This document shows positions 8,802-28,750 of a DNA stretch of 47,097 nt, one piece after another. The position numbers were made by a program, and so were the translations under genes. The notes below the pieces were generated by a model. It saw nothing but the letters and a program-made list of their open reading frames with translations. It had not been told where the DNA came from and did not search any database. Position 1 is the first letter of the stretch. Every line of letters begins with the position of its first letter. Source of the DNA: an uncultured Clostridia bacterium (GTDB lineage Bacteria; Bacillota; Clostridia; Oscillospirales; Oscillospiraceae); assembly GCA_947170435.1 (NCBI GenBank), contig CAMVTO010000018.1, forward strand, positions 1-47,097. Reading direction: 5' to 3'.

Positions 8802-10700
8802 TTAGCCAAGGAGCTGCAGCACGCCCTGGGGCAGCTGGTTCGCCTGGGCCAGCATCGCCTGCGCGGACTGGTTCAGGATGTTGTTCTTGGTGTACTCCAT
8901 CATCTCTTCGGCAACGTCGGTGTCGCGGATGGTGGACTCGGCGTTCTGGATGTTCTCGCGCATGACGCCGAGGTTGTTGATGGTGTGATCCAGACGGTTC
9001 TGGAGAGCACCGAGGTTACCACGGGTATCCGAGACGTTGTTGATCGCCTGCTTGATCTTATCCAGAGCCTCCGCGGCGCCCTTCTGGGAGGAGATATCCA
9101 CGTCGCCCACGCCGATCATCTTGGAGTGCATGTCGCCCACGGAGACGGTCAGCTTGTTCCACGCATCGCTGGTGTCGCCGATCTGCAGGGTCAGGCCGCC
9201 CTCGGTCGCGCCCTCGGAATCCTTGAAGCGGACATAGGTACGGTCAGTTGCCGCCTTGAATGCAGCCTCACTAGCGTACAGTGCGGGAGTGGCAGCGCCG
9301 CTGTACTCCGCAGTGACAGCGCTATCGGTGGAATCCCAACCATCTTTTTTAACCTTGACGGTCTTTCCATCCACGGTGTTCACAAAATTAGTGTCGTTTG
9401 TGGCAATCAAACCGGTTTCAACCTCAAGGCCAGTCGCCTGTGAAATCTTGCTCGCCATTTCGGCAACATTCCCGTTGTTGATTGCAGCCGGAGCAGTCGA
9501 GGAATCGTCATTCTGCACCACCCAGTTGCGGATGCCGGCGTCAGTCAACGTCTTGATGTCATCGTCCGTCAGTTTATTGCTGACAAACACAAACTTCTCG
9601 CCGTTGACCTCGAACGTTGCCTCGGCAAGATCGCGCGTCGCGATCGTTGCGTTAGCCGGATCGCCGAGCGTGTTCTTCCACACCTTCGCCTTAGCAAGAT
9701 CATAGACTTGGAAGCTGTCCTCTGCAAGCGGATTCTCTGTGATGCTGGAGGTGTAACTAGTAGTTGTAGCGCTACTCGTGCGATTGGAAGCCTTTGTTAC
9801 GGAGAAACCGTCGAGCCTCGCACCGGTTTTGCCGGGCATCTTTGCCTCAAACGAAAGCGAACCGTCATCATTCGCCGTCACAGTGAAATTGGACTTGACG
9901 GTTTCGTTCTTGTCCAGAATTTCCTTGAACGCTGCCGCTGCATCTGCAGCCGTCATCTTACTGGCGGTAGTAAGCGTGGTGTTCATCGCCTCGCCGTTAT
10001 CATCACCGTTCTCGCGCGCCACCTTTTTATTTGCGGCATCAGAAACAAAGAACGACTCGGTGATGTTCTGTTCATTTCCGTCAGCATCAGTAAAGTTCAG
10101 CGTAATGGAAAACTTCTCGTCGTCAGCCGCATCAACCTGAGAGTCGCCAGCAGCCTGGTTGAGCAGGTTAGACGTTTTATAGCTGGCCTTCTGCGCGCTG
10201 ACGGTCTTGGCGCTGGAAATGACGTCGATACCGATCTTGCTGAGGTCGGCGGAGACGCCGTTCTTGCCGGTGCTGGAGAGGGAGCCGTCGAGGAGCTTCA
10301 GGCCGTTGAAGTTCGTGGAATCGGCGATACGGTCGATTTCGGACTTCAGGGCGTCGACTTCCTTCTGCAGCTGCTCACGGTCCAGCTCGTTCTGATAGGT
10401 GCCGTTCGCGGACTGCTCGGCCAGGGTGGTCATACGGTTGAGCATGTCGTGCACTTCGGTCAGCGCACCTTCAGCCGTCTGAATGAGGGAGATACCGTCC
10501 TTGGCGTTCTTGTTCGCGCCCTCGAGGCCGGTGATCTGCGCACGCATCTTCTCGGAAATCGCGAGGCCCGCAGCGTCGTCGCCGGCGCGGTTGATCTTGT
10601 AGCCGGTGCTCAGCTTTTCAAGGTTCTTGCTGATGTTGGAGTTGTTGGTGCTGAAGTTGCGATAGCTGTTCATCGCAGCAATGTTGTGCTGAATACGCAT
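8802..10700 (-). CDS. fliC: Flagellin (flagellar filament protein)
   Basis: This 632-residue flagellin has canonical termini. The D0/D1 N-terminus (MRIQHNIAAMNSYR, NLEKLSTGYKINRAGDDAAG, ISEKMRAQI) spans residues 1 to about 175. The conserved C-terminus (ENIQNAESTIRDTDVAEEM and NNILNQSAQAMLAQANQ, ending QGVLQLLG) spans about 540-632. The middle 180-530 is a surface-exposed variable region rich in Thr, Asp and Ala. There is no cleavable signal, as expected for type III flagellar export. AAGGAGG precedes the ATG by about 8 bases, and a sigma-28-like promoter lies about 145 bp upstream. An inverted duplicate of the gene's 3' end occurs near 17 kb. Confidence 0.97.
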   Translation of the reverse strand: MRIQHNIAAMNSYRNFSTNNSNISKNLEKLSTGYKINRAGDDAAGLAISEKMRAQITGLEGANKNAKDGISLIQTAEGALTEVHDMLNRMTTLAEQSANGTYQNELDREQLQKEVDALKSEIDRIADSTNFNGLKLLDGSLSSTGKNGVSADLSKIGIDVISSAKTVSAQKASYKTSNLLNQAAGDSQVDAADDEKFSITLNFTDADGNEQNITESFFVSDAANKKVARENGDDNGEAMNTTLTTASKMTAADAAAAFKEILDKNETVKSNFTVTANDDGSLSFEAKMPGKTGARLDGFSVTKASNRTSSATTTSYTSSITENPLAEDSFQVYDLAKAKVWKNTLGDPANATIATRDLAEATFEVNGEKFVFVSNKLTDDDIKTLTDAGIRNWVVQNDDSSTAPAAINNGNVAEMASKISQATGLEVETGLIATNDTNFVNTVDGKTVKVKKDGWDSTDSAVTAEYSGAATPALYASEAAFKAATDRTYVRFKDSEGATEGGLTLQIGDTSDAWNKLTVSVGDMHSKMIGVGDVDISSQKGAAEALDKIKQAINNVSDTRGNLGALQNRLDHTINNLGVMRENIQNAESTIRDTDVAEEMMEYTKNNILNQSAQAMLAQANQLPQGVLQLLG

Positions 10701-10948: not shown

Positions 10949-13900
10949 TTACTTCGCCGTGTTGTAGCGCATGAACATGGTTGCCACCTGCGCACGGGTC
11001 GCGTTGCTCGCGGGTGCGAGGTTGCCGTCGATGCCGTTGACGATGCCGGCGCCGACCGCCCACCGCATCGCGGAGGCCGCCCACACGCTGACGGCGTGTG
11101 CGTCGCTGAAGCTGCCGAGGCTGGTATTCTCGCCAACGCTCACGTCAGCTTTCTTGTACTGCGCGTAGCGATAGAGAATGGCCGCAAGCTGCTCGCGGTC
11201 GACGGGGTAGTGCGGGGCAAACCGGTCGTCGTAGCCCTCAACGATCTTGTTCTCGGCAGCCCACGCCACAGCGTCGGCGTACCATGTGCCGGCCATCACG
11301 TCGGAGAAGGGGGTCGCGCCGGAAGCAGTCGGCTCGCCCTCCAAGCGCCACAGCATCGTGACGACCATCGCACGGGAGGTATCGCCGTTCGGGTTGAGGA
11401 CCCGGTCGCTGATGCCGTTCATCACGCCATTCTCCAACGCCCAGTGTATGCCGTCATGATACCATGCCGCCGGTTTCGCGTCATGAAACTCGCTGATCGG
11501 GCAGGTCGCGTCCTGCGGGCAGGCTGCCGCGCGTCCGTCGTCATAGGCGATGACGTAGTTGGAGAAGTGCTCAACGGTAAAGCCGACTTCCTGATTCTGA
11601 TAAGTAGTCGGAACCTCGGTCTTTTCGCCGTTCTCGGCAATATACCAAACGACGATGCCGCGGCCGATCTGGCCGTTCTTGAGCGCGTAGGGAACCGAAA
11701 CAACAGCCTTACCGCCCTTGAAGTCGCTGATTCGCTTGCCGTTTGACGTCATATGGGCATCCAGAACCTGCTGAACATTCATATCCTTGACGGTTTTCTT
11801 CTGCTCAGCCGTGAGCTTGCTCTCGCTGATGTCGTCGAGGTTGACCTTCAGCTCCTTGCCGTCGGCCGCAGCCGCGATCGTCGCAACAGCCGCGGCGTCA
11901 AAGGTCACTGTGCCGCCCGGGAGCTTGATCGCAAGTCCGTCCGCGGTGTTATCCCTGTCCGCAACCGCATCGGCGATCTTATCGAGCATCGCGCCGGGGA
12001 TGGCAACCTCGCTGACGTTGGAATTCAGCTTGCTCACGTCGATCGCAACCGTTCCGACCTCCTCGGCGTTCAGGACCTTTTCAACATCCGCGCTTGTAAT
12101 GGTAGCGGTGTCGCCGCGGACAGAGACGGTCACGCTGGCCGTCCGATCCTCGCCGGAAACGGGGATGGCCGCTGTGGTGCTGCTCGATTTGCTGGAAACG
12201 CGCGTCGACGTCCACTTGGCGAAGAGAACGGTATATTCCTCTTTCAGTGTGTCCTTGTCAAAGTCCCACGGGACCTCCTTGAACTCGCCCTCGGCCGTGT
12301 CGTCTTCCACATAGCAATACCAACCGTCAAACCGATAGCCGCTTCGGACGGGGTCTTCCGGCCTGGTAATCTTGTCGCCGTAACGGAACACGTCCGACAG
12401 CTCGAGGCCTTCGCTTCCGTCATCCGGTTCAAAGAAAACGGTGCCGTACGCGGAAACCTCGAAACTCCTGTCCTCGAGCGTCAGTTCGGTGTCGCCCTTG
12501 AAGACCTTTACGCTGATATACTTCCCAACGTCATTCTCGGTCAGCTTGTAGGTTTTGCCGGTCGCGCCGGCGATTTCCTCGTAGTCTGTGGTGTATTGAC
12601 CTTCCTCAATTTCCGTTTCCGTCCGGTGATACCACTGATAGCTGAGGCCGGTTACGGTCTCCGGCTCATACACGAATTCCAGCGTGGCGCCAGCAAGCAG
12701 CGGCCCGCTTATGTCGGATTCCTCCAGACTCGTGATAAAGTCGTAGGTTGTCGGCTCTCCCGCGTCATGGCCGTCCATCGCCTTCACGCGGGTGTACAGC
12801 GTGTACTTCGCGGCGGCGTCCAGTCCCTCCTTGCGGAGCGTATAGTAGGTGCCGCTTTCGTCGGTTTCTTCTTGAAGCTCGATGGTTTGTTGCATCCAGT
12901 CGGGTTCCTCGCCATAGGGCGCGACGGTATACTCCTGATCACCCTCGGCGCTGCCGAAAATGCTCTCGTGGTCGGTCATAAAGCCAACGAAGTACGGCAG
13001 CACCGCGGTCATGCCCTTTTCGATCTCATAAGAGACCATCGCCGCGATCTGATCGGACTCTTCACCGATCGTAATATATGCCAAATGCTTTCCGATCCCT
13101 ACCGGCGTAACCATGGGGATGAACAAATCCTTGATGTCGTTCTCAGAGAGATCCAGTCCCGTGGCTGCGTTGAACTCGGCAAGACCGTTCAGGTGCGCCT
13201 TTGCCGGGTGCTCGCTGTCGTAAACGAGGTTTTCCGGCGGGACGATCGTCACGGTAGCCGGATTGGTCTTGTACGGGCAGTCGTCCACGCTGCATGTCGC
13301 GAAAACGCTGTCGTGCGTCTCGCTCACACTGTAGGTGAACTGGTGGTCGTGCGGCGCGCTGATCACCAGCGTAATCGTCATGGCGTAGGTGTCCGCCAGC
13401 GTGCTGATGGTCGCGGCTTCGCTGGCGGCGGAGGCAACCGCGCTGTCCGTCGCCTTGACACGCTGGTAGAACGTGTACGCCGTTCCCGGCAGGAGGTTGC
13501 TGAACTCACTGCTGTCCTGCCAGCTCTCGCCGTCCATGCTGTACTCGCAGCCGTCCACCGCAGTCAGCGTGATGCTGTTCTTGGTGATATTCGCATTCGT
13601 CGCAGCGGGCGCGGCAGGCGTTTCCGGGATTTCCAGCGTGATTGTCAGCAACTTAACGTTTCGCAGCTCCAGAAAGAGTGTATTCTCTTTCTGGATGTTG
13701 TAATCCGCCAACGTTCTGTTGTCCTCGAGCTGTTGTTCGGAAAAGATAATACGCTGCTGGTCAGGGGGAATCCCCTCCTTGTCCTGAATCTTCCCCTTGA
13801 CGTTCTCGATGGTGTCGCTGGGCTCGACGTCCAGCGTAATCGTCTTGCCGGTCAGCGTTTTGACAAAAATCTGCATCGCCGCCGCGGGCGTAGTCGAGAT

Positions 13901-13969
13901 ATTCAGCACACTCAGCATCATCACAAAGCTGAGCAGGGCGCTGATCACCCGGTTTGTTGTTCGTTTCAT
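10949..13969 (-). CDS. Secreted ubiquitin-domain SLH surface protein
   Basis: A 1006-residue exported protein. Residues 1-31 are a signal peptide ending TPAAA. Residues 32-103 are a ubiquitin fold beginning [15 protein letters not shown], identical to eukaryotic ubiquitin at 61 of 72 aligned positions by eye. Lys6, 11, 27, 29, 33 and 63 and Ile44 (ubiquitin numbering) are kept; Lys48 is Gln, His68 is Phe, Val70 is Glu, and the RLRGG tail is absent because the chain continues after LR. Downstream are Fn3-like segments ([18 protein letters not shown]), a Listeria-Bacteroides-type repeat ([20 protein letters not shown], then DGWYC) and three C-terminal SLH repeats from about residue 815. The start is supported by AAAGGATG. 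The protein is likely displayed on the wall with ubiquitin outward; it cannot be conjugated as normal ubiquitin. It is the last gene of a three-gene operon. Confidence 0.93.
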
Positions 13970-13999: not shown

Positions 14000-14422
14000 T
14001 TATCGCGCCTCGATCGTCAGTTGGATTTCCGCTCCGTTGAGCGGGGTGTTGTCGTTCAGGGAAAAGCAATCGTAATGGAGCGTTGCGGGGTACTCGCCCG
14101 CGTCCAGCGCCCTTGATAGCGTGATGCGGGTGAACGCCTCACCGGGGGAAAGCGCCTCGCCCGTCCAGAGGGTTTCACCGTCCTCCAACGTCAGAGTGAG
14201 GACAAAGGTACAGGCGTTCTCCGGCGGGTTTTTGAGGTTCACGGCCTGCGCGGTCTTGCCCGCCGCGAAGTCCAGCTTCTCATAGCCCGGTATGGCGATG
14301 TTCTCGCCGCTGCCGGGGTTGGCCTCCGCGAACCGCTCCACGGTGTCGCCGCCCGCGCCGCAGGCTGTCAGCGCCAGCGCAAGGACGAGAAAAGCCGCAA
14401 GGCGGCACAGTTTTCGACGCAC
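14000..14422 (-). CDS. Small lipoprotein of the ubiquitin/SLH operon
   Basis: A 140-residue lipoprotein with signal residues 1-20 and lipobox LTAC (Cys21). The mature part looks like one beta-sandwich domain (AVNLKNPPENACTFVLTLTL, then GETLWTGEALSPGEAFTRITL and EYPATLHYDCFS), with an alternating hydrophobic pattern. No named family is recognised with certainty. It lies 30 bp upstream of the ubiquitin-domain gene and 33 bp downstream of the glycine-rich protein gene, all on the minus strand, so the three are probably co-transcribed and may form one surface structure. Confidence 0.8.
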   Translation of the reverse strand: MRRKLCRLAAFLVLALALTACGAGGDTVERFAEANPGSGENIAIPGYEKLDFAAGKTAQAVNLKNPPENACTFVLTLTLEDGETLWTGEALSPGEAFTRITLSRALDAGEYPATLHYDCFSLNDNTPLNGAEIQLTIEAR

Positions 14423-14455: not shown

Positions 14456-16291
14456 TCATCCAACTTGCGGCTCTACATAGGTAAGGGCACTCAAAACTTC
14501 GCCGCCGTTCACCTTAACGCTGCTCACAGAATTATTGCTATACTCGCCGGTGCTGATGGTAAAAGAGATGGGCATCGTGAAACTGCTGTTATCCGTCTTG
14601 CCGAGCAGCCATACAATAAGCCTGTCATTCGCGACTTTTGCAAGCGCACCATAACCGTTGCCGTCTTCCTCAAATTTTGCATCATAGTCCTGATCAATCA
14701 CCTGCTTAGGCGTCACTACCGTATCGTCTACTTTGATTCCCGTACAGGTAAAGCTTCCGTTCGCTTTTGAAAACGTTACGCTGTACTTCGTCCCGCTTTT
14801 CGTCAACTCCAAGCCAAAAGCCGCGGTTTCATTCAGCAGGGGCTTGAGCGCAGTCTCCGCGGTCACTGCCTCCACCTTCGCCGTAAAGGTTACGGTGTCG
14901 GTGTAGGTGCCTGCGGGCTTGGCGCTGTAATTTTCAACGACAATGCCCATGGTCTGGGTCGCGGCGGTTTTGCTCAGGGTCGCGAACTCCCATGTGGTTT
15001 TCTCCGTCGCGTTGTCGTAGGTCGTGTCCGTGTCGCCGCTTGCCGCCAGCTTGTAATTGACCTTGTTTTCGCCGGATACAAGCGCAAACTCGTCGTCAGA
15101 GCTTGCGGTCACGGTCAGTTTCTTGCCGTCTGCCAGCGTTCCTGTGGCGCTGATGCCGTCCGTGGCGTTCCAGCCGCTGCCCGATACCGTCAGCGTGGAC
15201 GGGATGGTGAGGGTGTAGGTGCTTGTGTCGTCGGTTGCACCGGAGCCTTCTTCAAAAACAGCGGTCAATCCCGAAATTGTACCATTATTATAATAACTTT
15301 TATTCACTGAAAGCTGATTATTCGAATCTTTTTGCTGTCCTCCAGGCGTTGTATATGTCCACTCCTTAAAGGCATAACCGGTCGCCGGTGTCGCGGTTAA
15401 TTGCCAAGAATTGGAGAGATTCGGATGGTTCGCAGCGGTTACAGTTCCCGCGCCTGCGGGAGAAATGGTCACCGTTGGTGTGACGGCGGATGCCGCCGCT
15501 TCAACCTTGACATACCGCTTATCGGAAGTATTGCCGGAAACAGCTGTCCAAGCGGTGCCGTCGTCGCTTTCCTCACCCAAACCGGTGATTGTTCCCGATA
15601 CAGCTTTGTCTTTTACTCCATTTTCGCCATCCTCACCAATGCCCGCTTCTCCGCCGATTCCGCCTGTCAATGTAGCCGATCCACCGGTGACGGTTACGGT
15701 ACCGGTTACACCAACACCGCCACTGCCGCCAGATCCGCCTGCATCGATACCGTCACCGCCTTTTCCGCCAGTTCCACCAGTCACTTCAATTGACCCGCTT
15801 TTGACTGTGACATTACCTTCAACTCCATTTCCGCCAGAGCCACCCGCGCAGCCGCCAGTACCATCAAAGCCGCCTTTGCCACCGGTTCCGCCTGTCACAG
15901 TGACTGTAGCACCATCAACGATAATGTTTCCTGTAAAACCATAACCGCCTGCTGTGCCATCTAAATCGAAATTACCCTCTGTTTTCCCATCGCTGCCCTT
16001 CGCGCCATTAATAATCAGTGTGCCCGGGCCCTCGACGGTCAGGGTATGGCCGGTCGCGTCGACGCCGGAGTAGACGGTTACTGTCTTGTCCTCGGCAATC
16101 GTCACGGTAACGTTGGCGGTGACGGTGAGCTTACCGATATGAGCATCTGCGGTAATGTTTTGATTTTCACTCCATGTTGCGTCCTCTGCCGCTTTCGCCT
16201 TCGCCGTGCTGCTTAGCCCCGGCATCAGCGACAGCACCATTGCGAGGCTGAGCAGCCAGCTCAGGGCTCTTGTGCGTGTTTTGTGTTCCAT
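14456..16291 (-). CDS. Glycine-rich secreted surface protein
   Basis: Start 16291 (AAAGGAG upstream, signal MEHKTRTRALSWLLSLAMVL) gives 611 residues; the open frame to 16345 lacks a ribosome site. After the signal peptide come a parallel beta-helix-like stretch (VTVTIAEDKTVTVYSGVDAT) and a Gly-rich segment at about 125-235 with repeated VTGGTGGKGG-type units. Next is a bacterial InlB-type repeat (VTISPAGAGTVTAANHP, ATPATGYAFKEWTY), followed by two more Thr-rich beta domains. No SLH, LPXTG or catalytic motif is visible, so anchoring may depend on partners. It is the first gene of the operon ending in the ubiquitin/SLH gene, and the leader upstream is unusual: an invertible promoter, a short ORF and palindromes. 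Confidence 0.85.
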   Translation of the reverse strand: MEHKTRTRALSWLLSLAMVLSLMPGLSSTAKAKAAEDATWSENQNITADAHIGKLTVTANVTVTIAEDKTVTVYSGVDATGHTLTVEGPGTLIINGAKGSDGKTEGNFDLDGTAGGYGFTGNIIVDGATVTVTGGTGGKGGFDGTGGCAGGSGGNGVEGNVTVKSGSIEVTGGTGGKGGDGIDAGGSGGSGGVGVTGTVTVTGGSATLTGGIGGEAGIGEDGENGVKDKAVSGTITGLGEESDDGTAWTAVSGNTSDKRYVKVEAAASAVTPTVTISPAGAGTVTAANHPNLSNSWQLTATPATGYAFKEWTYTTPGGQQKDSNNQLSVNKSYYNNGTISGLTAVFEEGSGATDDTSTYTLTIPSTLTVSGSGWNATDGISATGTLADGKKLTVTASSDDEFALVSGENKVNYKLAASGDTDTTYDNATEKTTWEFATLSKTAATQTMGIVVENYSAKPAGTYTDTVTFTAKVEAVTAETALKPLLNETAAFGLELTKSGTKYSVTFSKANGSFTCTGIKVDDTVVTPKQVIDQDYDAKFEEDGNGYGALAKVANDRLIVWLLGKTDNSSFTMPISFTISTGEYSNNSVSSVKVNGGEVLSALTYVEPQVG

Positions 16292-16358
16292 AGTTTTACT
16301 CCTTTCGTGCCGCCTGTCCGGGCGGCGATTGTTTACGGTTTGCATTGCGGAAGATCAT

Positions 16359-16402
16359 CGGTTTACGGGTACCCGTAAACCGCATTCGCATATGCGAATG
16401 CG
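16359..16402. repeat. Two abutting perfect palindromes in the operon leader
   Basis: A perfect 24-bp palindrome (half-site CGGTTTACGGGT) at 16359-16382 shares its last CG with a perfect 22-bp palindrome (half-site CGCATTCGCAT) at 16381-16402. In the minus-strand mRNA they would make two stacked hairpins about 70-110 bases before the start of the glycine-rich gene. An imperfect echo (GTTTACGGTTTGCATTGCG) lies at 16331-16349. Confidence 0.9.
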
Positions 16403-16473
16403 ATGGTTTCTCTGTGTGGCGGCGGCTGCGCCGCGTGGCCCGCCTTGGGGCGTTTGGGCTGTTTATTCTTCAT
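16363..16473 (-). CDS. Putative 36-residue leader peptide ORF
   Basis: An ATG at 16473 is preceded by AGGAGG at ideal spacing (7 bases) and opens a 36-codon frame, MKNKQPKRPKAGHAAQ and so on, ending AVYGYP. The N-terminal half is very basic (Lys/Arg/Pro). The last 13 codons and the stop are made entirely by the two perfect palindromes, so ribosomes finishing this ORF would sit on the hairpins. It lies in the leader between the invertible promoter and the surface-protein gene. It may be a regulatory leader peptide or a small functional peptide. Nothing homologous is recognised; the evidence is the ribosome site and position only. Confidence 0.5.
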   Translation of the reverse strand: MKNKQPKRPKAGHAAQPPPHRETIAFAYANAVYGYP

Positions 16474-16501: not shown

Positions 16502-16771
16502 TACAACAGACTGTGCATTATGTGGTGATTACATAGTTTAAGATACTATATTATAGCAGAAGCGCGTCGAAAAAACAACGCCGATTTTGTAAAATATCGG
16601 TGACTTCGGTGTATTTCGGACAGCTTCATTTTGCCGGATTGCCATTTCTGTGCCATCCGGCTTTTGCCATATCCGATTGTTTCTCCGGCACGGGGCGATT
16701 TCTCCGGCTTTTCGTGGTCGTTCAGGCGTGATGCTGCGCTGCGTTTACCACATATTGCACAGTCTGTTGTA
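16502..16771. other. Invertible promoter segment (inverton) with 25-bp inverted repeats
   Basis: Inverted repeats at 16502-16526 (TACAACAGACTGTGCATTAT then GTGGT) and 16747-16771 match at 24 of 25 positions and enclose 220 bp. The segment contains a good promoter pointing out across the left repeat toward the surface operon. A tyrosine recombinase C-terminal fragment starts 1 bp beyond the right repeat. Known phase-variable invertible promoters in gut bacteria have this layout: short inverted repeats, a promoter between them, a surface-protein operon on one side and a recombinase nearby. Inversion would point the promoter away from the operon (OFF). Confidence 0.75.
16550..16578 (-). promoter_or_regulatory. 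Promoter inside the invertible segment, ON orientation
   Basis: On the minus strand TTGTTT (16573-16578), a 17-bp spacer, then TATAAT (16550-16555) with an extended TG one base before the -10. Transcription would start near 16543 and run through the left inverted repeat into the leader, the 36-codon ORF and the surface operon. Confidence 0.75.
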
Positions 16772-16772
16772 C

Positions 16773-16889
16773 TTACAAAACAAGGCGGAGCTGTCCGAGC
16801 TGCCGCCTTTCTTCTTTGCCGCTGCGGGCGGTATAAATCCGCGTCGTTTCAATGCTGCTGTGACCGAGAATGTCGCTAACCAGAAGATC
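16773..16889 (-). pseudogene. Tyrosine recombinase, C-terminal remnant
   Basis: The minus-strand frame ending at 16773 encodes about 38 residues with the C-terminal signature of XerC/D-like integrases: DILGHSSIETTRIYT, including the LGH box and the nucleophilic Tyr (codon 16833-16835), then a short basic tail. Everything upstream (catalytic Arg/Lys and the core-binding domain) is missing. The sequence beyond 16889 is the C-terminal part of a flagellin in the opposite orientation. A deletion joining the two genes explains this. The stop codon abuts the right arm of the invertible promoter, suggesting this was the inversion enzyme. Confidence 0.8.
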
Positions 16890-17071
16890 GATTCCGATCT
16901 GCGCATCCGCTTCACCGACGCCAGCCAGATCAGCGAGACCCAGATCCGCGACACCGACGTCGCCGAGGAAATGATGGAGTACACCAAGAACAACATCCTG
17001 AACCAGTCCGCGCAGGCGATGCTGGCCCAGCGAACCAGCTGCCCCAGGGCGTGCTGCAGCTCCTTGGCTAA
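16887..17071 (+). pseudogene. Flagellin C-terminal fragment with frameshift
   Basis: Only about 60 codons remain. The first 19 (KIDSDLRIRFTDASQISET) differ from the intact flagellin at 8802-10700. The rest, QIRDTDVAEEMMEYTKNNI onward, is nearly identical to it, including the final codons, stop and terminator. One base is missing after 17030 (CCCAGCGAACC instead of CCCAGGCGAACC), shifting the frame 13 codons before the natural end. There is no start or promoter. It is the relic of a second, slightly divergent flagellin gene. Confidence 0.9.
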
Positions 17072-25422: not shown

Positions 25423-28400
25423 TTACGCCGCGGCATTGGCATTGACCTGCTCGATGGCCTTGCGGATTTCCATCCATACGCTCAGATCCGTGAACACCTC
25501 CACGATGCTGCCCTGATCGGTGAACGGGGCCTCCTGCAATACGGACAGATCCTTCATCACGCCGTTGTGGACGATGTACTCCACGATCTGGTTGACGAAG
25601 TAAATCTGCCGACTGTCGAGATTGGAACCGTCCAGAAACTCCGCAAACGCTGCCTTCGCCGCGTTCATGTCGAGACCCACGATCTCCCGCACCAGTTCGC
25701 CCAGCGGCTTCTGACGGTACTCCGCCTCATACTCCGCCTTGCTGCCGACCTCGCTCCAGAGGATTTCCTCCAGCGCCTTCACGTCGTCCGCCGTCAGCGG
25801 GATATTGCTGCGGAGCTTCGCGATGACGCCCTCGTCCTGATGGGTGCGGATGTAGTACTCGGCCTTGGCCTTGTAGTTGCGGAAATCGTCGGTTTCCAGC
25901 TCCGCCTCGTTCCACTCGGTGGAGAGGATATCGTCGGTAAAATTCGTGTCATAGCGAATCTCGGGATGCGGCAGGTACTTCATCAGGCCGCGCAGGCTCT
26001 CGCGGATGTGTTCAAACTCGTTGATGCCCGCGGTGTCCAGATAATCCGTGTGCAGAATCTTCTGGATCAGCTCGCTCTGCACCATGATCTCCGGGATGTT
26101 GGCGACGCCTGCGATGCCGGCCACCTTCTTCATCAGGTCGTGTCTGGCCCGCTTGTAGGTTTTGCCGGCAAGGTAGGTCAGCTCGATGCCGTACAGCAGC
26201 GCGTCAAAGCGGACGGCGCTGGCGTCGTCGTCGTCGGGAAGGATCAGCGGGGCCAGCTCATCGTCCATTTGCAGCGTGTTTTCATAGGTGAGCGCGGCAT
26301 AGCTGTCGGGATTCGCGTACAGATCAACGTACTTCAGATGCTGTTTGACGGCGAAGCTGTCCCGGTTCAGCTCCCGCACCTTCTGCACCAGATCCGCCAC
26401 CAGCTCCGCGCGGAAGGGAATCAGCTCCTTTGTCTGATAAGCTATGTCCTGCAGCTTCCAGACAATCTGCGTTTTGAGTTTGAAGATTGCGCCGGAGAGG
26501 GCAATCATGCTCTGACTCCTGCCCTTGCCGCCCATGCGGAAGAACTCAAAGTTGCCGCAGAGATCGAAGATGTAGAACTTATCCTTGTCCGCGCCGTCCA
26601 GCAGGCCGGGGCAGAGTCGCGTGCCGCGGCCGATCATCTGCCAGAACTTCGCCTTGCTCATGACCTTCTTGAAGAACACGAGGTTCAGCACCTCCGGCAC
26701 ATCGATGCCGGTGTCCAGCATGTCCACGGAGATGGCGATGCGCGGCTGCTTCTCGCCCTCGGAAAACTCGTCGATGGCGCTCTGGGCATAGGTCATGTAG
26801 TTGTCGATCACCTTCGCATAGTCCGGCAGGTGCGGGTACTCCTTGTGGAACACCTCCAGAATCTTCTCGGCGTGGGCATGGCTCCTGGCGAAGATGATCG
26901 TCTTGCCCAGCAGCTCCCCATAGTGTACCTTGCGCCCGTTGGTCATGAGAATGTTCAGCGCCAGCCGGATCGTGTCCTCGTTGAACAGCCATTCGTTGAG
27001 CGCGGAGGAGGCGATGGACTCCGGCATTTCACCGTTTGCGTCGGTGAAGGTCGCCTCGTAAGTCTCCCGGTCCGCCTCAGAGAGCTCGTCGTACTTGATG
27101 CCTTCCTCGATGAATTTGAGCTTGCTCTCCACCGAGAGATAGTCCACCAGAAAGCCGTCCCGCACCGCCTGCGACAGCTCGTAGGCGTAGGTGGGGACGC
27201 CCTGTCCGTCCTCGTACTCCAGCTCGAACTCCTCGTAGGTGTTCTTGTCGATGTCGTCCTTGGGCGTGGCGGTCAGGCCCACCAGCGGCGCGTCAAACCA
27301 GGTGAAGATATCGCGGTATTTGTTGTAGATCGAGCGGTGGGCCTCGTCGCAGATCACCAGATCAAAATGCCCGCAGGTGAAGAGCTTGCCCTCGCCGTCA
27401 GCGGCGCTGTCGATGGCGTTGTACATCGTCTGATAGGTGGAGAACACGCAGCGGGCGTTAAAGTGCTCCTTGTCCTCCACCAGATTCACCACGTCCAGAT
27501 CGGGCAGGAGATTCACAAAAGCGCGCTTGGCCTGCGTGACGAGGGAGTTGCGGTCGGCGAGAAACAGGATGTTCTTCACCCAGCCGCGCTCCAGCAGCAC
27601 CTTGCACAGCGCGATCACCGTGCGCGTTTTGCCGGAGCCGGTGGCCATGACCAGCAGCGCCTTGCGGCGGTTCTTCGCGTCCAGCGCGTCACACACCGCT
27701 TTGATCGCAGCCACCTGATAGTAGCGCCCCGCGATCTTCTGATCCACCAGAACGTTTTTGAGGCTTGTCCGCACAGACCGGAGGTTGAACCACTTTTCGA
27801 GGTCCCGCTTTGACCAGATGGCGGCGCACTTGCGCTCGGGATACTGTCCGTCGATGATGTGCGTCTCAAAGCCATTGGTGAGGAAGATCACCGGACGGCG
27901 TCCGTGCCGCTGTTCCAGCAGGTCAGCGTACAGCTTCGCCTGTTGCCGGCCCTTGGAAACGTCCACGCAGGTGCGCTTGGCCTCCACGACCGCCAGCGCC
28001 CGGTTGGCGTCGTCGTAGAGCACATAGTCCGCAAAGCCGACCTCGCTCTTGTTCGGCATGCCGGGCAGCTCCACCTCGTTCAGCCAGTCCCTGCCCTGTG
28101 TCCAGCCCGCGTCCAGCAGCATCGTGTCGATGTAGATTTTGCGTGTTTTGTACTCGGAGAGGTCCAGCGGCTTGGGGACGTAGGTCTGCTGCTGCTCTTC
28201 GCGCCTTGCGGTCAACTCGGCGCGCAGCGCGGCGTTTTCCTCAATCAGCTTTTGGAGGTCGGGGGACTCCCTTAGCAGGGGAGTAGGTTCCGCTTTTTCT
28301 GTATCCCCGGAAAGGAGCGCGAGGTCAAACTGCCGCTCCTCATAGCTGCCGCCGTAGCAGTAGGCCACAAAATCGAGGAACACAAAGAGGTTTTCAAGGC

Positions 28401-28728
28401 ACAGCGCCGCCTGCTCCTGCGTGATCTTCCGCTCGGAGTGGGCGGCGTGGTTGCCCAGCTTGCGGATGATGTCCATGCGGCGGTAGAGGTCGGGGCCGAC
28501 GATGTCGCGGAAATCCTCGGCGCTCATGAGGCTGACCAGCGTGGGCTGATACGGCGCGGCAAGCTCTGCGTCCACGCTGTACATCCACTTGACGGCGCTC
28601 TCCATCGCCCGGCGGCAGTTCAGCACACAGGCCGCCGGGTCGATTTTGTAGATGCGCTCCGCCGCCACCGCCGCGGGAGCGAAGGAGGCGAAATCCTTGT
28701 CGTTTGTGAAGATGTCAAAGTTGGTCAT
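25423..28728 (-). CDS. hsdR: Type I restriction enzyme, R subunit
   Basis: The endonuclease/translocase subunit of a type I restriction-modification complex (R2M2S). Start 28728 gives 1101 residues; the alternative TTG at 28743 has no ribosome site. Residues 1-140 contain a DUF4145-like domain (CRRAMESAVKWMYS, RRMDIIRKLGNHAAHS). The nuclease site is FADYVLYDD followed by AVVEAKRT (Glu249-x-Lys251). The superfamily 2 helicase motor has Walker A ATGSGKT (362-368), DEAH (461-464), LTATP, and motif VI-like MIGRGTRLCPG. The C-terminal ~300 residues form the helical part that contacts HsdM. All catalytic motifs are intact, so it should be active. It is the last intact gene of the operon. Confidence 0.95.
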   Translation of the reverse strand: MTNFDIFTNDKDFASFAPAAVAAERIYKIDPAACVLNCRRAMESAVKWMYSVDAELAAPYQPTLVSLMSAEDFRDIVGPDLYRRMDIIRKLGNHAAHSERKITQEQAALCLENLFVFLDFVAYCYGGSYEERQFDLALLSGDTEKAEPTPLLRESPDLQKLIEENAALRAELTARREEQQQTYVPKPLDLSEYKTRKIYIDTMLLDAGWTQGRDWLNEVELPGMPNKSEVGFADYVLYDDANRALAVVEAKRTCVDVSKGRQQAKLYADLLEQRHGRRPVIFLTNGFETHIIDGQYPERKCAAIWSKRDLEKWFNLRSVRTSLKNVLVDQKIAGRYYQVAAIKAVCDALDAKNRRKALLVMATGSGKTRTVIALCKVLLERGWVKNILFLADRNSLVTQAKRAFVNLLPDLDVVNLVEDKEHFNARCVFSTYQTMYNAIDSAADGEGKLFTCGHFDLVICDEAHRSIYNKYRDIFTWFDAPLVGLTATPKDDIDKNTYEEFELEYEDGQGVPTYAYELSQAVRDGFLVDYLSVESKLKFIEEGIKYDELSEADRETYEATFTDANGEMPESIASSALNEWLFNEDTIRLALNILMTNGRKVHYGELLGKTIIFARSHAHAEKILEVFHKEYPHLPDYAKVIDNYMTYAQSAIDEFSEGEKQPRIAISVDMLDTGIDVPEVLNLVFFKKVMSKAKFWQMIGRGTRLCPGLLDGADKDKFYIFDLCGNFEFFRMGGKGRSQSMIALSGAIFKLKTQIVWKLQDIAYQTKELIPFRAELVADLVQKVRELNRDSFAVKQHLKYVDLYANPDSYAALTYENTLQMDDELAPLILPDDDDASAVRFDALLYGIELTYLAGKTYKRARHDLMKKVAGIAGVANIPEIMVQSELIQKILHTDYLDTAGINEFEHIRESLRGLMKYLPHPEIRYDTNFTDDILSTEWNEAELETDDFRNYKAKAEYYIRTHQDEGVIAKLRSNIPLTADDVKALEEILWSEVGSKAEYEAEYRQKPLGELVREIVGLDMNAAKAAFAEFLDGSNLDSRQIYFVNQIVEYIVHNGVMKDLSVLQEAPFTDQGSIVEVFTDLSVWMEIRKAIEQVNANAAA

Positions 28729-28750
28729 GGGAGGAACCCTCAATTACTAA

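Follow-up and report, generated by a model that had tools for sequence, protein, structure and literature searches.

Results and Discussion

A ubiquitin head on a predicted surface protein

The window analysed here is a whole stretch of 47,097 nucleotides from an uncultured Clostridia bacterium of the family Oscillospiraceae (contig CAMVTO010000018.1 of assembly GCA_947170435.1; genome G000 below). Its minus strand carries a gene, P0001, for a predicted surface protein that appears to display, at the N-terminus left by signal peptidase, a domain closely similar to ubiquitin, the textbook intracellular modifier of eukaryotes. The gene and its parts are these:

10949..13969, minus strand: gene P0001 for a ubiquitin-headed SLH surface protein of 1006 amino acids (aa) (open reading frame; Pfam matches to ubiquitin, Flg_new and three SLH stretches)
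13877..13969, minus strand: predicted signal peptide, residues 1-31, ending TTPAAA (sequence and rule-based check; same register in 72 of 91 loci)
13661..13876, minus strand: ubiquitin domain, residues 32-103 (61/72 identity to human; PF00240; AlphaFold2 model)
13628..13648, minus strand: segment LTITLEI, of the MTITL type, just behind ubiquitin (sequence comparison)
12218..12442, minus strand: Listeria-Bacteroides repeat (Flg_new) in the stalk, residues 510-584 (Pfam, 2.4e-09)
10952..11311, outer limits approximate, minus strand: C-terminal SLH region of three stretches, predicted cell-wall anchor (Pfam, 3.3e-29)

An earlier reading of this DNA from its letters alone (the sequence-only reading) had placed the gene and its ubiquitin segment at these coordinates, and the open reading frame and translation agree. 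Its count by eye of 61 identities in 72 positions is also what alignment with human ubiquitin in PDB chains gives (85%). The 11 differences from human are E16D, A28G, L43I, A46S, G47E, K48Q, G53N, S57A, S65N, H68F and V70E; the four substitutions singled out at the time (K48Q, G47E, H68F, V70E) are all present, as are the six lysines said to be retained (K6, K11, K27, K29, K33, K63). The PF00240 match within the whole of P0001 reaches 1.8e-25 and 89 bits against a cut-off of 25.4, far beyond chance.

The C-terminal Gly-Gly required for conjugation is absent: NVKLLTIT stands where the LRGG tail would be, in keeping with the loss reported earlier. Because the Gly-Gly is missing, the domain should be unable to undergo conjugation through its own C-terminus and, judged by its sequence, is not a functional modifier. 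No match to UQ_con or UCH was found in this genome, which is 88% complete, and 14 control genomes were equally without one.

At the other end of the domain, the residues preceding ubiquitin Met1 are ...TTPAAA. A rule-predicted signal peptide together with SLH repeats (Pfam 3.3e-29 over three stretches, the best at residues 887-929) gives P0001 the features of an SLH surface protein. The proposal that ubiquitin's own Met1 begins the mature, secreted protein holds up as a prediction from this sequence and from the register shared by 72 of 91 loci (see below). AlphaFold2 (AF2) was run on the mature N-terminal part with an input alignment of 34 rows. Block means of the predicted local distance difference test (pLDDT) are 89-96 across the first 70 residues, while the 122 modelled residues behind ubiquitin are mostly of low confidence. 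In Foldseek, the ubiquitin model superposes on many solved PDB ubiquitins with a root-mean-square deviation of 0.4-0.8 Å over 72 residues. The model thus gives residues 32-103 the beta-grasp ubiquitin fold that had been expected of them.

Ubiquitin heads in other bacteria

The genome itself has one ubiquitin. Counting it in each case, ubiquitin occurs in 2 of 18 genomes in its genus, in 4 of 300 in its family and in 5 of 394 in its order; two further genera, those of G053 and G628, have it in 2 of 32 and 5 of 39 genomes. A phylum sample of 398 yields two strong matches (93.9 and 104.7 bits). Three weak matches from that sample were not counted as ubiquitins (one of 28.0 bits and one of 25.8 bits with an internal stop, both just above the Pfam cut-off, and one below it). 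Occurrence in these Bacillota samples is rare and patchy.

A wider scan, run with the four-sequence alignment A1 (patterns DYNIQKE and GKTITLDV), covered genome_contigs (84,980 species) and matched 582 stretches. A relative is encoded in 430 of them, and the best 80 of the 430 were taken; these are the most window-like, so that conservation figures derived from them are biased upward. Nine further loci come from viral contigs. In all, 91 loci were tested, with L002 and L003 omitted (same contigs as L043 and L015) and L089 and L090, copies of L088, included. By a simple rule of our own (residue -1 small and residue -3 small or aliphatic, counted back from ubiquitin Met1), the signal peptide ends exactly before ubiquitin in 72 of the 91 loci of this set, largely drawn from the best 80. 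Nineteen loci do not pass. In L048 the signal peptide comes with a single additional residue; in L058, L069 and L080 it sits 9 residues further upstream; L036 is placed at the end of a contig. The other 14 fail outright, and probable eukaryotic contigs or intracellular ubiquitins are among them, for example L040, which has four units in tandem.

Of the passing records, 13 mention neither metagenome-assembled genome (MAG) nor uncultured in their titles. Named carriers are Clostridiales bacterium NK3B98, Ruminococcus albus 8 and KH2T6, Dyella (three), Cohnella, Rhodobacter amnigenus, Loktanella, Pseudohaliea rubra, Paracidovorax valerianellae, Rhodoferax lacus and Methylolobus aquaticus. The protein of the "cyanobacterium" L019 nearly equals that of the Methylophilaceae locus L053 (347 of 370 positions identical behind ubiquitin), so phylum labels of single bin contigs are not to be trusted one by one.

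What lies behind the head varies. Seventy of the 72 passing loci (without L089 and L090), together with L036, L048, L058, L069 and L080, make up 75 members. Pfam recognises ubiquitin in all 75, Autotransporter in 20, SLH in 5, and Dockerin and IPTL-CTERM in 4 each; NCBIfam finds choice-of-anchor U in 4, midcut-by-XrtH in 4, IPTL-CTERM in 5 and a type IX secretion system (T9SS) tail in 1. In this census L011, L054 and L078 are cut by contig ends and many members have no recognised anchor. Four members are ubiquitin only, L024 and L085 ending in LRGG and L064 and L076 ending earlier. Going by these sequences, the constant of the class is the ubiquitin head and its position, not the anchor.

The stand-alone secreted ubiquitin of Dyella sp. 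OK004 is identical to human ubiquitin at 71 of 72 positions and ends in LRGG, as does the copy on a viral-labelled contig (L024, L085). In L048 (Fibrobacter) and L078 (sheep-omasum Clostridia), LRLRGG is kept and the protein continues beyond it; in principle, eukaryotic deubiquitinases could cut such an arrangement.

Selection, residence and origin

Among the 75 ubiquitin domains (2775 pairs), median synonymous divergence (pS) is 0.87 and median nonsynonymous divergence (pN) 0.098. For most of the 40 closest pairs listed, omega lies at about 0.03-0.2; for L014/L029, almost identical in ubiquitin, it is 0.56. The GC content at third codon positions (GC3) of the ubiquitin correlates with GC3 elsewhere in the gene (Pearson 0.86, n=65) and with flanking GC (0.86, n=68). 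Since pS far exceeds pN and codon GC3 follows host gene and flanks, the secreted copies are, by these sequence measures, settled residents under purifying selection.

The same figures bear on whether eukaryotic DNA, as contamination or as a mis-assembled ubiquitin exon, has been placed in a bacterial gene. Ubiquitin is eukaryotic, and some scan matches are probably eukaryotic contigs in MAGs (the four-unit polyubiquitin L040, for instance). Yet in the window the frame is open through the whole 1006-aa bacterial gene, relatives in several genomes have the same arrangement, the 13 records without MAG or uncultured in their titles include Ruminococcus albus 8 and KH2T6, Dyella, Cohnella and Pseudohaliea rubra, and codon composition follows each host. 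Contamination is refuted for the class, rejected by the non-bin records, the common arrangement and the codon composition, and we give it next to no probability for the window. The segment is not an assembly artefact, the arrangement being common to relatives in several genomes, among them records not labelled as metagenome bins.

A tree of the 72-residue domain (87 rows, 13 of 83 branches starred) carries the phylogenetic question part of the way. The window ubiquitin falls within one starred set (95/92) of 16 rows, of which 12 are Bacillota, 1 Synergistota and 3, the window included, ungrouped. Human ubiquitin lies in the unresolved backbone, and the donor and the number of transfers can therefore not be inferred from the tree.

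Addition of the head to existing surface proteins

P0001 resembles other SLH-domain surface proteins in its signal peptide, its long stalk with a Listeria-Bacteroides repeat (List_Bact) and its three C-terminal SLH stretches. It differs in that ubiquitin-less paralogs start with a short linker where P0001 has ubiquitin. The long surface proteins at C48 and C13 of this genome and the C10 protein of G002 begin with three parts in this order: a signal peptide, some 15-17 linker residues (by eye) and a segment MT(I/V)TL(V/T)I. In four ubiquitin-headed proteins, ubiquitin takes the linker's place and a like segment follows: LTITLEI in the window, MTLTLTI in L015, LSITLTI in L005 and MTITLKI in L004. 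The MTITL-type segment was not found behind ubiquitin in the same-genus locus L043 or in the other relatives listed.

Two alignments mark the joint directly. The L015 protein aligns with the ubiquitin-less G002 C10 protein (38% over 415) from its residue 108, ubiquitin ending at 101, and onto MTVTLVI at residue 57. In L008, a ubiquitin-bearing subunit with a TIP domain (see next section) is 75% identical over 157 aa to its neighbouring ubiquitin-less subunit, beginning at the last ubiquitin residues. From such comparisons of sequence, ubiquitin in Bacillota is a head added onto a pre-existing family of surface proteins. Neither this nor the breadth of the class nor the invertible segment described below had been recognised in the sequence-only reading.

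Linked lipoprotein and TIP-domain genes

Two genes lie upstream of P0001 on the same strand, with gaps of about 30 bp:

14000..14422, minus strand: lipoprotein gene P0002, predicted Ig-like fold (lipobox-like LTAC; 30-bp gap to the ubiquitin gene; AF2)
14456..16345, minus strand: gene P0003 for a secreted TIP-domain protein (the ATG at 16291 is probably the start)
14861..15235, minus strand: TIP domain of P0003, residues 371-495 (sequence comparison)

Homologs of the lipoprotein lie directly upstream of the ubiquitin gene in L005, L004/L101, L015 and L033, and 2.1-2.9 kb upstream of it in L008 and L057; this genome has four copies. The AF2 model of the lipoprotein is Ig-like, with weak PDB matches that include pilus chaperones and none at E<=0.001. 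A pilus identity is not claimed, no PDB match reaching that value.

In the window, L005, L101 and L015 the TIP domain has a gene of its own upstream; 12 other loci have it fused behind ubiquitin (L006, L010, L008, L033, L057, L068, L082, L115, L121, L122, L123 and L124). In R. albus KH2T6 (L057) and RUG12221 (L008) there are five TIP-domain genes in a row, one of them with ubiquitin. Against PDB sequences the domain has three weak matches, the best at E 0.077, and two members gave no Pfam match above curated cut-offs. Gene order and fusion tie ubiquitin, as read from sequence, to a multi-gene surface structure in these Bacillota; that structure may be a fibre.

Seven clusters of neighbouring genes are present in at least 4 loci, and three of them stand beside ubiquitin: the lipoprotein, a SET-like gene and a secreted gene of Dyella. 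The SET-like gene, of about 330 aa and conserved, adjoins the ubiquitin gene in 8 loci with proteobacterial-type ubiquitin proteins, in divergent, upstream or downstream position (L019:197-1186, L038:423-1433, L053:3606-4595, L056:11207-12205, L065:8750-9745, L066:9922-10920, L075:8762-9754 and L079:8785-9780). Two members searched against NCBIfam and one against Pfam and PDB sequences returned no match. Its GxG and NH motifs resemble those of SET lysine methyltransferases; a methyltransferase beside a lysine-rich ubiquitin head would be striking, if true. The Dyella gene, present in three Dyella records and on one viral-labelled contig (L024:8758-9870, L064:8702-9883, L076:3563-4939, L085:3593-4753), lies immediately upstream of that for the stand-alone secreted ubiquitin; its product is a secreted-looking repeat protein that scores below the cut-off of the GloVer choice-of-anchor model.

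A probable invertible promoter upstream

Phase-variable surface loci of gut bacteria that are driven by invertible promoters have short inverted repeats round a promoter, an adjoining tyrosine recombinase and a surface protein downstream. A layout of this kind precedes P0003:

16502..16526, plus strand: inverted repeat, proximal arm (25 nt, 96% between arms)
16747..16771, minus strand: inverted repeat, distal arm (25 nt, 96% between arms)
16550..16578, minus strand: promoter-like TTGTTT-17-TATAAT inside the segment, facing the operon (by eye; 3 of 6 matches at -35)
16776..16880, minus strand: remnant of a tyrosine recombinase, last 35 codons (tblastn, 91% over 35 aa; whole beside paralogous switches)

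The arms enclose 220 bp. At C13, a paralogous locus of this genome, the same arms enclose a segment in the opposite orientation (89%) between colinear flanks, and similar arm pairs occur at C48 and C28. With up to 2 mismatches, the arm pattern has 9 matches in the genome against 0 for its reversed control. A tyrosine recombinase (Phage_integrase, 1.8e-24) adjoins the C13 switch and homologs adjoin those at C48 and C28; these enzymes could act in trans on the switch in the window. C48 has TTTACA-17-TATAAT at the place equivalent to that of the window's TTGTTT-17-TATAAT (by eye). The 220-bp segment is, on this pattern, likely an invertible promoter, and we infer an ON state for the switch in the window and an OFF state for that at C13. 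Two things set it apart from the known gut loci: the switched product has a ubiquitin head, and the neighbouring recombinase in the window is a remnant.

Whole tyrosine recombinases stand at the paralogous switch loci C13, C48 and C28 (L098, L099, L130). The switches at C13 and C48 lead to giant surface proteins without ubiquitin, and the genome therefore probably phase-varies several surface proteins.

Between the switch and P0003, at 16363-16473 (minus strand), a 36-codon frame behind AGGAGG runs through the perfect palindromes CGCATTCGCATATGCGAATGCG and GGTTTACGGGTACCCGTAAACC; C13 has a similar layout. This frame is possibly a regulatory leader.

The binding surface of displayed ubiquitins

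In 69 secreted copies, a set picked by similarity, K27, K29, D58, K63 and L8 are present in 69/69, I44 and H68 in 66/69 each, and V70 in 56/69. The window copy alone has A46S, G47E and H68F (0 of the 68 others), and shares K48Q and V70E with one other copy each. A less biased sample, drawn by the Pfam model from the genus of G628, holds five strong heads that are identical to human ubiquitin at 42-52 of 72 positions, three of the five with L8P. L115 and L121-L124 belong to genus g218, of another family; their strongly diverged heads stand before TIP domains and form a natural series for patch loss.

These counts bear on the notion that ubiquitin serves as a structural cap: an N-terminal module of high stability and protease resistance that would shield long surface proteins or keep them soluble and would have no specific partner. 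Its occurrence in the same position on unrelated backbones would suit a cap, as would L124, where the binding patch is lost and the domain kept. A cap has no need of surface conservation, though, and at near-saturated synonymous divergence K27, K29, D58 and K63 are still found in 69/69 of the similarity-picked copies; moreover, ubiquitin-less paralogs in the same genus and operon manage without the head. We think a cap improbable, and it comes third in our order of readings.

Comparison with known secreted ubiquitins

The comparison with the ubiquitin of Bacteroides fragilis (BfUbb) that had been drawn from the outset is an apt one: by the published descriptions, BfUbb is likewise a eukaryotic-type ubiquitin of a gut bacterium, with a signal peptide cleaved before Met1 and no Gly-Gly (PMC5705921; PMC3352274). 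BfUbb is a free 76-aa secreted protein, whereas in P0001 a stalk and SLH repeats follow the head within one protein, the gene has linked neighbours, and a probable invertible segment lies upstream; the published figure for BfUbb is 63% identity to human ubiquitin (PMC5705921; PMC3352274), as against 85% (61/72) for the window head. By the architecture read from its sequence, the window protein is not a BfUbb, being the head of a 1006-aa SLH protein where BfUbb is free. Secreted ubiquitin of the plant-parasitic nematode Globodera, as the same source describes it, also has a signal peptide before ubiquitin and a non-ubiquitin C-terminal extension; it differs as a eukaryotic effector whose extension is only 12 aa and which is not anchored at a cell surface (PMC5705921).

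BfUbb raises the prospect of a head used as a weapon among bacteria, in which ubiquitin, on its surface stalk or shed from it, would bind and harm a protein of competing bacteria. Among secreted bacterial ubiquitins, we found an experimental test for BfUbb only. Of 40 B. fragilis strains, 13 are inhibited by its mature form, made synthetically (76 aa), and bovine ubiquitin is inactive, which implies that specific substitutions matter in BfUbb, and it too begins at ubiquitin Met1 and has no Gly-Gly (PMC5705921). The patch divergence of the window copy and L124 would fit such retargeting. Many copies are anchored rather than free, however (20 autotransporters and 5 SLH proteins among 75), and most of the 69 keep a nearly human surface; ordinary ubiquitin was inactive in the B. 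fragilis assay. No evident immunity gene was seen by Pfam among 10 neighbours, no search aimed at immunity genes having been made; BfUbb seems to need none. An interbacterial role is, in our judgement, unlikely, and ranks second.

The title of a 2011 paper calls the B. fragilis case unique (PMC3352274), and a 2017 paper names B. fragilis as one of few bacteria with ubiquitin (PMC5705921). The open PubMed Central (PMC) matches listed, a scope that excludes subscription papers and preprints, contain no account of ubiquitin heads on anchored bacterial proteins and no secreted bacterial ubiquitin besides BfUbb. Here ubiquitin recurs at the head of secreted bacterial proteins, and Ruminococcus albus is one of the named carriers. 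Its presence in named strains makes function directly testable; that function would bear on protist grazing, rumen and gut ecology, ubiquitin-cross-reactive antibodies and the reuse of eukaryotic folds by bacteria.

Proposed function

The reading ranked first, held tentatively and at a little under even confidence, is that of a predicted phase-variable, displayed ubiquitin head that engages a partner outside the cell. Signal peptidase would expose ubiquitin Met1, and the SLH repeats would hold the other end of P0001 on the cell wall. A tyrosine recombinase, acting in trans as the neighbouring copy is a remnant, would flip the promoter, so that part of the population only would show the head. 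The head might then bind its partner, most likely overall a ubiquitin-binding protein of a protist or animal host; a eukaryotic partner is favoured because ubiquitin's own sequence has been kept, not just its fold. The host-facing mimic or decoy proposed earlier survives in part: a displayed ubiquitin fold is predicted, while faithful mimicry is not what the altered I44-patch surface of the window copy suggests.

For the class as a whole, we would put at even weight a broader proposition. Bacteria of many phyla may repeatedly have taken eukaryotic ubiquitin and mounted it, near-always as the mature N-terminus, on whatever export and surface parts were available (autotransporters, SLH repeats, dockerins, exosortase-type and T9SS tails, multi-subunit TIP structures). 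It would serve as a general extracellular recognition head towards protists, hosts and competitors, here phase-varied, and in some Proteobacteria the SET-like gene might modify the head before export.

Several observations weigh against a phase-variable head directed at a eukaryotic partner. The switch in the window adjoins the last 35 codons of a recombinase and not a whole gene. Its promoter is weak by consensus, and scans listed one site only, facing away (0.8 expected by chance). The two orientations come from different loci, not from one. With up to 4 substitutions, the arm motif occurs in no examined relative locus outside G000 (L005, L015, L101 and L043 among them), and a generic inverted-repeat search in seven upstream regions of relatives found only weaker pairs (72-82%) or short hairpins; a motif confined to G000 means that phase variation is not general among relatives. 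Near the ubiquitin genes of the remaining loci the lipoprotein was not found; L043, of the same genus, and R. albus 8 (L006) are among them, with 10 kb upstream covered. The best ubiquitin-less alignment of the window protein (C48, 68% over 95) starts at residue 109 but falls on a repeat in the interior of the C48 protein. The alignments of L004 and L005, weak and rich in repeats, extend some 16-25 residues into ubiquitin, which leaves a clean head boundary in L015 and L008 only.

The surface itself adds to these. The window copy is altered at the canonical I44-patch region (G47E, K48Q, H68F, V70E), and in L124, from another genus, the patch is lost (L8P, I44K, H68I, V70T). Canonical ubiquitin receptors may therefore not be the target in these Bacillota, and mimicry of the canonical receptor surface is, on sequence grounds, doubtful for parts of the phylum. 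Patch conservation elsewhere weighs less because the set was chosen by similarity. BfUbb, the one secreted bacterial ubiquitin tested, is reported to act on bacteria (PMC5705921).

Other features of the window

A whole flagellin gene (8802-10700, minus strand) comes after the ubiquitin gene, and a flagellin C-terminal remnant (16926-17068, plus strand; 73% over 44 aa) lies beside the recombinase remnant. Flagellin sequences on both sides suggest a past rearrangement of the region between them. Further along, at 25423-28743 (minus strand), the window holds a gene like that for a Type I restriction R subunit.

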